Shown here: positions 50,827 to 54,036 of the stretch, piece by piece
Layout: each line of letters begins with the position of its first letter
How positions within the stretch are numbered: the first letter of the stretch is position 1
From: Flavobacterium sp. Root901
Lineage (GTDB): Bacteria > Bacteroidota > Bacteroidia > Flavobacteriales > Flavobacteriaceae
Direction: 5' to 3'
Length of the DNA: 64,000 bases
NCBI RefSeq assembly: GCF_001429765.1
Contig: NZ_LMJB01000007.1
Location: forward strand, 308,780 to 372,779
Position numbers and translations under genes: made by a program
Notes under the pieces: model-generated
Seen by the model: only the letters and a program-made list of their open reading frames with translations
What the model was told of the DNA's origin: nothing
Database searches by the model: none

Positions 50827-51765
50827 TTGAAAAATATAAAAAACAAATTTGGTAGAAAAACTGCTTTTAGTATTATACTATTTTCAAGTATTTTATTTCA
50901 TTGTACTGCTCAAAATCAGGTAATTCAGCTTTGGAATAAAATTCCGGATGAAATAAAAGCCGGAGATTACAAAGAAAAGGAAGTCACAAACGACGGGAAG
51001 GTTCAAAGTACTAGTTTAGTTACAATTCCCACTTTGACTGCTTTTTTTCCCAGTATAACAAAACCTAATCAAACAGCAGTAATTATTCTTCCTGGCGGCG
51101 GATATCAGCATTTAGCCATTGATAAAGAAGGGACAAAAGTTGCGCAATGGTTTAATACTTTAGGAATTCCCGCCTTTGTATTAAAATATCGCCTTCCTAG
51201 TGATTTAATTATGAAAAATAAAAATATCGGCCCGTTACAAGATGCACAGGAAGCTATTCGCTATGTGAGACAAAATGCCGCAAAATGGAATATCGATCCT
51301 AATAAAATTGGAATTTTGGGATTTTCTGCCGGAGGACATTTAGCTTCAACTGCATCAACGCATTATGATGATAAAGTATATGAATCTGCCTATAAGGTAA
51401 GTGCGCGTCCGGATTTTTCTCTTTTAATTTATCCGGTTATTTCTATGGAAAACCAAATTACACACAAAGGTTCGCAGATCAATTTGTTAGGCAATAACCC
51501 TTCCCAAAATTTAATCGATTCGTTTTCAAACGAAAAAATGGTTACTGCCCAGACACCTCCGGCATTTTTAATTCACGCAACTGATGATACTGTAGTGATT
51601 CCGGAAAACAGTATCAATTACTATTTGGCTCTTAAAAAAAATGGCGTTGCAGCAGAATTACATTTATATGAAAAAGGCGGACACGGTTTTGGTTTAGGGG
51701 TTAACCATACCAGTAAAAACTGGACCAGAGATTGTGAAGAATGGCTTAAAGCTAATGGATATTAA
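50827..51765 (+). CDS. Secreted alpha/beta hydrolase, probable carbohydrate esterase (TTG start)
   Basis: This 312-residue protein has the oxyanion motif VIILPGGGYQHLAID, the nucleophile elbow LGFSAGGHLAST, an acid in HATDDTVV and His in KGGHGFGLG. It belongs to the acetyl-xylan/pectin-esterase-like group seen in polysaccharide loci. The frame has no ATG until about residue 130, inside the fold. A TTG at 50827 gives a complete signal peptide (FSIILFSSILFHCTAQ), so TTG is the likely start. A partial operator core sits upstream, so it may belong to the pectin regulon. Substrate unknown. Confidence 0.82.
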   Translation: MKNIKNKFGRKTAFSIILFSSILFHCTAQNQVIQLWNKIPDEIKAGDYKEKEVTNDGKVQSTSLVTIPTLTAFFPSITKPNQTAVIILPGGGYQHLAIDKEGTKVAQWFNTLGIPAFVLKYRLPSDLIMKNKNIGPLQDAQEAIRYVRQNAAKWNIDPNKIGILGFSAGGHLASTASTHYDDKVYESAYKVSARPDFSLLIYPVISMENQITHKGSQINLLGNNPSQNLIDSFSNEKMVTAQTPPAFLIHATDDTVVIPENSINYYLALKKNGVAAELHLYEKGGHGFGLGVNHTSKNWTRDCEEWLKANGY

Positions 51766-52250
51766 TTTAGAAGATTAGAGTCCTGAATTCTGATTAAGAA
51801 TGAGTTGAATTGAAATGAAAATTTTAAGTAATTGAGATTAATCTCATTGATGCAGCATTCTATATTGTTTTTCATCTGCTGTAAAATAACCCGCTTCTAT
51901 CCTGCCCGTTTTATGCTTACATAACCGCTTGTGTTATGAGCATAAAAAAAGGCTCTTAGATAAAGTCAAATAATTAACCAAATCTAAAAACCTATAAAAA
52001 ATTAGACAATTGCTGTATTGTTTGCAAATTTATACAAGCTATCCACTTTAAAATGAATATGTCAATTTTTAAAAATTAAAAAAATTGTTTCTCCAAAAAC
52101 AGTTTAACATCAAGATCTGGTTAGGTATAATTTAAAAGGCAATAAATTATTTCAGAATCTCAACAAGACAAATCTAATTGAGGTTTTTTAAATCCTGTTA
52201 CGGGTTTTCCGTAATTCTTTTAAGTCTAATAAACTTCAGACATCTTTCTT
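51766..52250. other. Non-coding stretch with one hairpin
   Basis: No coding frame is convincing. An imperfect hairpin, TTTATGCTTACATAAC (51910-51925) with GTTATGAGCATAAA (51933-51946), is present and is followed by an A-run on the plus strand; it lacks a T-run on either strand, so it is not a standard terminator. Confidence 0.5.
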
Positions 52251-52256
52251 AATCAA

Positions 52257-52745
52257 GATTAAGTTACGGCCGTGATGAAACCAATAAATTTGCATAGTAA
52301 ATTAAACGTTCTGTCAAAACTGGAATCAAAAAGAAAAGAAAAACTTAGAATCTCAGATCTTAGAACCTTAGCATCTTTCTTGTTCTACATTAAGTTACAG
52401 CCATGACAAAAGCAGTAAATTTGTAAAGTAAATTAAACGTTCTGTCAAAAACTGTAATTAAAGAGAAAAGAAAAAAACTTAGAATCTCAGCATCTTAGAA
52501 CCTTAGCATCTTTCTTATTCGTTCTGTCAAAAACTGGAATCAAAAAGAAAAGAAAAAACTTAGAATCTCAGCATCTTAGAACCTTAGTATCTTTCTTATT
52601 CGTTCTGTCAAAAACTGGAATCAAAAAGAAAAGAAAAACTTAGAATCTCAACATCTTAGAACCTTAGCATCTTTCTTATTCTAGATTAAGTTACAGCCAT
52701 GATAAAAGCAATAAATTTGTAAAGTAAATTAGAAGTTCTGTCAAA
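52257..52745. repeat. Composite direct-repeat array, about 82-bp units
   Basis: Units starting CGTTCTGTCAAA occur at 52307, 52438, 52520 and 52601, with a partial TTCTGTCAAA at about 52735. The spacing between the last three full units is 82 and 81 bases. Each full unit runs through an A/G-rich segment and AGAATCTCAGCATCTTAGAA to CCTTAGCATCTTTCTT. A second block, TTAAGTTACAGCCATGA with TAAATTTGTAAAGTAAATT, occurs near 52257, 52389 and 52685. No long frame crosses the array. Confidence 0.85.
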
Positions 52746-52805
52746 CTAATTTTCAAAGTAAAAACTTTGTATCTCAGTATTTCAGACTTCAGAAACTTAA
52801 AAAAA

Positions 52806-53120
52806 ATGAAAACACTTGAATTCTTATTACTCGGAAAAAACGAAGCGATCCTGGCCATTTTACTTCGCCTTGTAAACGCATATGAAGATTGGAACGCAGT
52901 TTCTTTCAACAATGAAAAAGAAGCTCAGGAATATTTTCAGAATCACAAAATCGATGTTGTCCTTTTGAGTTCCGGAATCGAAGATCATCTCGAAAAAGAA
53001 TTTACTTCATTTTGTTTAAAACAACAGCCGGATGTAGAAGTAATTGAACATTTTGGCGGAGGGAGCGGGTTATTAAAATCAGAAATCCTTCACCGATTAC
53101 ATCTAAAAGGAAAAATTTAG
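52806..53120 (+). CDS. Small receiver-like protein of unknown function
   Basis: This 104-residue protein has alternating strand and helix segments (KTLEFLLLGKNEAILAILLR, KIDVVLLSSGIEDH, QQPDVEVIEHFGGGSGLL) like a response-regulator receiver. The strand-3 position where receivers have the phosphorylated Asp reads VVLLSSG, so phosphotransfer is unlikely. I start it at the ATG; an earlier TTG-initiated extension (52767) is not needed. It follows the repeat array directly and is followed by 226 non-coding bases. No function can be assigned. Confidence 0.6.
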   Translation: MKTLEFLLLGKNEAILAILLRLVNAYEDWNAVSFNNEKEAQEYFQNHKIDVVLLSSGIEDHLEKEFTSFCLKQQPDVEVIEHFGGGSGLLKSEILHRLHLKGKI

Positions 53121-53346
53121 GTACCAGCATTTTTCTCTTTTAAATTTCATTAAAAGCTTAACGACAATTCATTAACGAATATCCAATTTTTATTGACGAT
53201 ATATCGCTAGGATCACTATTGCCTTTTCTGAAAAACCTTTTAAAATCAATACATTATAAACAAGGCATTTAATTTGAATGCAAAACACTGAAAATCAAAT
53301 ACAAAATATTTTAAAAACCTTTTATTAACAACAAAATCAAATTATC

Positions 53347-54036
53347 ATGAAAAAATTAATCCTAACAGCAGTTTTATTATTAGTAACTTTTATCGGTTTC
53401 GCTCAAAAACCAAGTCCGTCTTTACTGGATCCAACAAATCACACTTTGGTCTTAATTGATTATGAAAGCCAGATGGCATTTGCAGTAAGCAATATTCCAA
53501 TCGATCAGCTTAGAAACAATACCGCTTTGGTAGCCGGAGCATCTAAAATATTCAAAGTTCCAACTATTGTCACAACGGTAGCAGAAAAATCATTCAGCGG
53601 ACCTGTTTTTAGAGAAATTGAAGAATTCTATCCACAAAAAACATCTAACTATATCGATCGTACTACAATGAATACCTGGGAAGATGCACCTGCACGCAAA
53701 GCTATTATTGCAACTGGCAAAAAGAAAATTGTTTTTGGCGGTTTATGGACAAGCGTTTGTATTGTTGGACCGGTTTTATCTGCCATCAACGAAGGTTATG
53801 ACGTTTATGTAATTACGGATGCAAGCGGAGACGTATCTAAAGAAGCGCACGAAATGGCTGTAACCCGTATGGTTCAGGCTGGTGCTCATCCTGTAACTTC
53901 ATTACAATATTTATTAGAATTACAACGTGACTGGGCTCGTCAGGAAACTTATGTACCTGTAACAGATTTAGTTAAAAAATACGGTGGTGCTTATGGTGTA
54001 GGTGTACAATATGCACACGAAATGCTAAAACACTAA
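53347..54036 (+). CDS. Secreted isochorismatase-like cysteine hydrolase
   Basis: This 229-residue protein has a signal peptide (ILTAVLLLVTFIGFAQ) and an isochorismatase fold. The expected catalytic triad is Asp38 (LVLIDYESQMAF), Lys81 (TVAEKSFSG) and Cys138 (GLWTSVCIVG), as in the YcaC-like amidase group. Export to the periplasm is less usual for this family. It is followed by a terminator and, 87 bases later, by an amidohydrolase gene. A shared role in hydrolysing a small amide or a related compound is possible but the substrate is unknown. Confidence 0.85.
   Translation: MKKLILTAVLLLVTFIGFAQKPSPSLLDPTNHTLVLIDYESQMAFAVSNIPIDQLRNNTALVAGASKIFKVPTIVTTVAEKSFSGPVFREIEEFYPQKTSNYIDRTTMNTWEDAPARKAIIATGKKKIVFGGLWTSVCIVGPVLSAINEGYDVYVITDASGDVSKEAHEMAVTRMVQAGAHPVTSLQYLLELQRDWARQETYVPVTDLVKKYGGAYGVGVQYAHEMLKH

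Follow-up and report, generated by a model that had tools for sequence, protein, structure and literature searches.

The repeat array at positions 52,257 to 52,745 of the window (the whole 64,000-nucleotide stretch of Flavobacterium sp. Root901 DNA that was analysed) is probably a tandemly duplicated, regulated promoter, neither a free-standing repeat nor a small-RNA locus. We think it likely that the array represents the duplicated 5' control region of the gene that follows it, which encodes a protein of 104 residues, and that its repeating parts are regulated promoter units of the class II type. The parts are as follows.

52248..52263, + strand: palindrome 1, CTTAATCAAGATTAAG, a perfect inverted repeat and predicted operator
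52285..52292, + strand: -7 box 1, TAAATTTG, 21 bp past palindrome 1
52307..52343, + strand: leader block U1
52344..52374, + strand: octamer tract O1
52379..52394, + strand: palindrome 2, CTTGTTCTACATTAAG, three mismatches to the consensus
52416..52423, + strand: -7 box 2, TAAATTTG
52438..52477, + strand: leader block U2
52478..52512, + strand: octamer tract O2
52520..52593, + strand: U3-O3 copy, without palindrome and without -7 box
52601..52673, + strand: U4-O4 copy, without an upstream palindrome or -7 box of its own
52675..52690, + strand: palindrome 3, CTTATTCTAGATTAAG, the gene-proximal predicted operator, predicted centre -41.5
52712..52719, + strand: -7 box 3, TAAATTTG, with a predicted start at about 52724 and a leader of 82 nt
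52735..52792, + strand: U5, the diverged proximal leader, with degenerate octamers O5
52806..53120, + strand: gene for the 104-residue protein, with a receiver-like fold lacking the phosphorylation residues

A full unit, about 131 bp long, consists of a 16-bp palindrome (consensus CTTATTCTAGATTAAG), a 21-bp spacer, the -7 box TAAATTTG, a leader block and an octamer tract, the last made of the 8-base repeats CTTAGAAT CTCAGCAT CTTAGAAC CTTAGCAT. The order of the parts is P1-U1-O1, P2-U2-O2, U3-O3, U4-O4 and P3-U5-O5, followed by the start codon at 52806; there are thus three full units and two leader-octamer copies without a promoter, and sequence similarity extends back to about 52241. Palindrome 1 is perfectly symmetric, while palindromes 2 and 3 are imperfect. 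An earlier note on this DNA had described four to five copies of a CGTTCTGTCAAA-led block, our U, and three copies of a second, TTAAGTTACAGCCATGA block, our P. TRF places a repeat there (three copies of 81 bp at 52438-52681, 95% matches), four good U copies begin at 52307, 52438, 52520 and 52601 with a diverged fifth at 52735, and the longer block recurs at 52226, 52357 and 52653. The repeats are therefore real and lie at the stated place. The second block is likely the functional core, which contains the palindrome together with the promoter that serves the gene downstream, and the 82-bp unit is the leader belonging to that core. The period of 81-82 bp arises because U3-O3 and U4-O4 lack the P block.

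The same note saw no coding frame and no CRISPR features, and both observations hold: among open reading frames of at least 60 residues, only the end of a reverse-strand 73-residue frame (52691-52912) overlaps the array, and the units are long and contiguous, with no unique spacers of similar length between short identical repeats. A CRISPR, a transposable element and a coding repeat were rejected on the layout and the reading frames of the array. A plasmid collection gave no match.

Promoters of the primary sigma factor in F. johnsoniae carry the Bacteroidetes -7 box TAHHTTTG, which spans -12 to -5 (PMC6847099, as far as the available part of that paper describes it). The array has three exact boxes of this kind, one per full unit. 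(A sigma-70 promoter scan, which is uninformative for Bacteroidetes, found 6 promoters where 7.1 were expected.) With the box at -12 to -5, the gene-proximal palindrome falls at -49 to -34, centred at -41.5 from the predicted start. In the accessible part of PMC3688515, E. coli FNR is described as binding TTGATnnnnATCAA, with the site at -41.5 (+/-4) in 19 of 23 FNR-activated promoters of known start. A site centred about 41.5 bp before the start, which is predicted here, is thus common to class II FNR promoters and the array, and like the sites for E. coli FNR at dmsA and narG (PMC3688515, same part) the palindrome has a 4-bp centre, with TTAATnnnnATTAA here in its symmetric form against TTGATnnnnATCAA for FNR. 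The array differs from those E. coli promoters, so far as that source describes them, in its half-site, in having a Bacteroidetes -7 box and in the duplication of the entire promoter unit, and activation is a prediction here; it differs from the F. johnsoniae primary-sigma promoters of the cited excerpt in having a conserved palindrome just upstream of the expected position of the -33 element. We regard the predicted class II placement, together with the predicted regulon described below, as well supported by sequence.

A scan of genome contigs recovered 68 loci with an ortholog of the 104-residue gene, of which 64 are recorded as Flavobacterium, three as Flavobacteriaceae bacterium and one as [Flexibacter] sp. 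All except one have a palindrome with at most four mismatches to CTTATTCTAGATTAAG, followed after 21 or 22 bp by TANNTTTG, and the exception (L116) is the most distant ortholog, at 43% identity; the conserved core is therefore the operator-promoter, and the array is its amplification. The 67 loci have from one to eight palindrome-box copies. Counting the window as well (69 loci), there is one copy in 39, two in 8, three in 10, four in 6 and five in 3, while six, eight and zero copies occur in one locus each; the counts for L058, L065, L073 and L111 are lower bounds because they have less than 400 bp of upstream sequence. A single unit may stand close to the gene, about 63 bp ahead of the ATG, or at a greater distance. 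A coding-sequence tree of 64 loci, 8 of whose 66 inner branches are well supported, requires at least 5 changes between one and several units and at least 18 changes of copy number. The nearest relative lies in the same locus for 30 of 70 distal units, and distal units are 80% identical within a locus against 64% between loci, in keeping with the earlier suggestion that the expansion is recent or is kept uniform. Doubt had also been attached to the array should close relatives lack it or should it be an assembly artefact. The first is partly the case, as L053, whose protein is 97% identical, has one unit, which therefore reflects variation in copy number and not an artefact; nor is the array peculiar to one assembly, since there are five units in the single-contig 5.9-Mb genome G042 and three in the SLB02 chromosome.

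Tandem promoters and duplicated upstream regions, in which several promoters serve one gene, are familiar in bacteria. The array is like them in that respect, and unlike them in that a complete unit of operator, promoter and leader is repeated head to tail, in a number that varies among species and reaches eight.

Under neutral slippage, an alternative that we judge somewhat unlikely, the gene-proximal unit alone works, and the distal units are idle tandem copies that stay similar through recent duplication and gene conversion. In its favor, 39 of 69 loci have a single unit, copy number is volatile, some copies in the window lack a promoter and one site there is degenerate, and palindromes are shared by descent among recent duplicates. 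It fits poorly with the pattern of differences within loci, where the share of differing sites is 6.8% in distal palindromes, 22.7% in spacers and 11.7% in the 20 bases that follow the box; of 18 informative loci, 15 have palindromes less diverged than their spacers (p 7e-4). Between loci the palindromes are 92% identical against 61% for the spacers (47 units), and the palindrome (0.92) and the -7 box are conserved above the 45 bases downstream (0.73 and 0.65). The distal units of both comparisons were found by palindrome similarity, which biases the set toward conserved palindromes and counts against our preferred reading. A count anchored on the leader instead finds palindrome and -7 box kept in 45 of 49 distal leader copies (at most three mismatches), and U3 and U4 of the window account for two of the four that do not keep them. 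The window's own two distal palindromes are 25% divergent, close to the 29% of their spacers, which is a point against the reading that we prefer. The conservation of the palindrome and the leader-anchored retention favor the view that the distal units are functional in the family, and the operators of the promoter stack look selected across the genus.

We also considered where else the predicted operator occurs. The pattern of palindrome, spacing and box has five matches in the window's own genome against one for a reversed control: two in the array, one before a YceI gene and two before pirin genes. The last three (G000:C8:96542-97857, covering L121, L122 and L195, and G000:C6:304344, L125) are predicted operators, and would point to a small Flavobacterium regulon under Crp/Fnr control. 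Searched by itself and with two mismatches allowed, the 16-mer shows little enrichment (12 matches counted by strand, 8 in the reversed control). The signal in this genome comes from adding the spacing; on reading, L118, L123 and L124 have no -7 box at the right spacing. A stricter pattern, with a spacer of N20-23, was matched 56 times, in 29 of the 61 Flavobacterium genomes searched, whereas its reversed control was never matched; the spacing is 22 bp at 40 sites and 21 bp at 16, and a spacer of N24-54 gives no match in the 61 genomes (its reversed control gave single matches in 6). Outside the genus the motif is near background, in 4 of 147 other genomes of the family against 2 control matches.

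The genes behind these sites are few in kind. From 34 loci we obtained 45 site-gene pairs, 37 of them distinct by sequence, which belong to pirin (17), YceI (16), the 104-residue gene (3) and an FMN reductase (1); the distal sites of arrays are too far from the gene to count as pairs, L130 has no open reading frame within 450 bp of its site, and no downstream reading frame was found for one site of the genus search (G022). The palindrome occurs in the forms CTTAATCTAGATTAAG and CTTAATCTAGGTTAAG in the genus, the latter being the commonest. That of the 104-residue gene, CTTATTCTAGATTAAG, differs from it and has a spacer of mostly 21 and not 22 bp, which counts against our preferred explanation. 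A literature search for a regulator of pirin or YceI found no paper, subscription journals being mostly outside its scope.

The repeated palindromes might instead be targets of a repressor or a sink for a scarce regulator, in which case the copies would buffer expression rather than boost it. Several sites at one gene, where the pirin and YceI genes of the same genome have single sites, would suit such an operator sponge or repression array, and a factor bound at the array could also repress. We think it improbable, as all 56 genus sites keep a fixed phase of 21 or 22 bp relative to the -7 box, the layout of a class II activator, and every extra site has a promoter of its own.

Returning to regulated promoter units, the regulator is most likely a Crp/Fnr-type protein of the pirin locus or a paralog of it. 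A gene of about 191 codons with a cNMP-binding domain, a likeness to class II Crp/Fnr systems, is present in 11 of 16 regions, which were fetched because they hold palindrome sites, and in 10 it lies directly before pirin on the same strand. An ortholog (at least 55% identity) is present in 40 of the 61 genus genomes; the motif occurs in 29 of these 40 and in none of the 21 others (Fisher 1e-8), an association that shared ancestry inflates and that falls to 23 of 30 against 6 of 31 at a 75% identity cut-off. The 11 genomes with an ortholog and without the strict motif count against our preferred explanation. The window's own genome has an ortholog at G000:C8:103198-103767, 80% identical and 5.4 kb from pirin. 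By Pfam the candidate matches cNMP_binding above the cut-off and HTH_Crp_2 below it (E 0.029), a weak recognition of the helix-turn-helix, and the ortholog was missing from the results when the own genome was searched with HTH_Crp_2. In sequence the candidate closely resembles the solved regulator 3dn7 (PDB) and, weakly, FNR-type regulators. An AraC-family gene lies beside YceI in the own genome, but we rejected it as the regulator, since such a neighbor is found in 7 of the 16 regions against 11 for Crp/Fnr.

Divergent homologs of the 104-residue gene lie no more than about 1.5 kb from pirin, YceI or Crp in 7 of 12 loci, and in G013 and G030 such a homolog is the first gene of a cluster that also contains a Crp/Fnr paralog and pirin, and is preceded by the palindrome. 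The close homologs have the palindrome in 11 of 11 cases, and none has a pirin, YceI or Crp neighbor. The operon-linked Crp/Fnr regulators are paralogs of the pirin-locus regulator, which counts against our preferred explanation. Upstream of two divergent homologs (L235 and L236) we noticed a shared string (TTTCTTGTCCCAGTTCAATGC / TTTCTTGTCTTAGTTCAATGC) before a TTTG box, perhaps a different operator. One site of the genus search lies at G004:C27:18711-19324 (L213:1700-2325), where the related palindrome CTTAAACCAGCTTAAG begins some 10 bp or less past a Crp/Fnr paralog and is separated by 21 bp from a -7 box. The gene past it is of the carboxymuconolactone-decarboxylase family, again a point against our explanation, and variant palindromes with unchanged spacing may serve other Crp/Fnr paralogs.

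The 104-residue protein belongs to no Pfam family, and NCBIfam gives only weak response-regulator matches, far below cut-off. A model built by AlphaFold2 (AF2) from 30 orthologs has a pLDDT of 88 and a CheY-like fold, with receiver chains aligning at Z 12.2-13.4 and rmsd 1.9-2.7 over 94-103 residues. The best Foldseek E value is just 1.5e-3, and a non-receiver Rossmann protein scores like the receivers against the model, so the fold says little about function. Read from the sequence, the acidic pair after strand 1 is absent (G10-K11-N12), as is the phospho-acceptor aspartate after strand 3 (S55-S56); the protein therefore has the appearance of a degenerate receiver.

The octamer tract is a repeat in its own right, dispersed between genes and abutting their ends, and is carried within the array as part of the leader. 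The earlier note had proposed a search of the genome for further copies of the array: it has 51 matches in its own genome, itself included, and the run CTTAGAATCTCAGCATCTTAG that its blocks share is octamer tract, found elsewhere too. Octamer tracts are not specific to the array and match in 13 of 41 genus genomes, the five genomes with at least 15 matches all being at least 5.0 Mb. Defined as CTYAGnAn at least three times in a row, the dispersed tract occurs 13 times in 400 kb of random stretches and not at all in three shuffles of these stretches plus the window. None of the 13 lies inside an open reading frame, and all 13 have their 3' side nearer to one (median 13 bp against 130), the end facing it being a same-strand start or an opposite-strand stop. 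Of 52 tracts in 39 stretches retrieved by BLAST, 2 are inside reading frames, and 46 of 50 turn the 3' side to the end of one. Examples in the own genome are at L179:2913-2990, L180:6679-6749 and L193:14606-14810, beside those in the window at 52344-52673. Twenty-one pairs are inverted with their A-rich sides facing each other, none has the opposite arrangement and two are on one strand; two inverted pairs are common to both samples. We considered and rejected hairpins, as the arms of the 21 inverted pairs match each other at 0.66 and the arms of other loci at 0.69. A full-text literature search for four octamer strings found no paper.

REP and BIME elements are interspersed intergenic repeats. 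Octamer tracts resemble these and Flavo-1 (PMC9723704, in the part of that source available) in being extragenic, dispersed, and both sense and antisense. They are unlike them, to the extent that this source describes Flavo-1, in the 8-base period, in the 3' side directed toward the end of a reading frame, in paired arms that are not specially complementary, and in having no Rfam match in the window (none in 51700-53400 at E up to 1, and none across the window at gathering score).

Small-RNA sequencing had been proposed earlier to look for transcripts, and the leader blocks do lie downstream of predicted starts and so would be transcribed, but a repeated RNA element, acting through leader structure or giving small RNAs, is very improbable, as the fold is no better than that of shuffles (z 1.39 for one unit, 0.29 for the whole leader), Rfam has no match, and the palindrome and -7 box are conserved above the bases downstream of them.

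If the array is a stack of class II-type promoters, each full unit would consist of a promoter read by the main sigma factor of Bacteroidetes, a leader, and a palindromic site whose centre lies near -41.5, on which a Crp/Fnr-family dimer would recruit polymerase, and the leader after each promoter would end in an octamer tract. The 104-residue gene would then belong with the pirin/YceI regulon. Duplication and deletion between repeats would alter how many promoter units there are (relatives have one to eight), and the extra units would probably add sites of initiation and of regulator binding and thereby scale induced expression. A bolder proposal, which we find rather unlikely and offer tentatively, is an evolvable promoter-copy rheostat, in which duplication and deletion of units set the Crp/Fnr-type induction of a degenerate receiver within an undescribed pirin/YceI regulon, and the receiver may feed back on the regulator.

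What had been an anonymous repeat can now be tested as a regulatory system of Flavobacterium, a Crp/Fnr regulon predicted to comprise pirin, YceI, FMN reductase and a degenerate receiver, with a predicted operator, a spacing and a candidate regulator. The natural series of one to eight promoter units before one conserved gene makes the effect of unit number on expression directly measurable, and such a copy-variable stack may be a natural way for these bacteria to adjust how strongly a gene is switched on.
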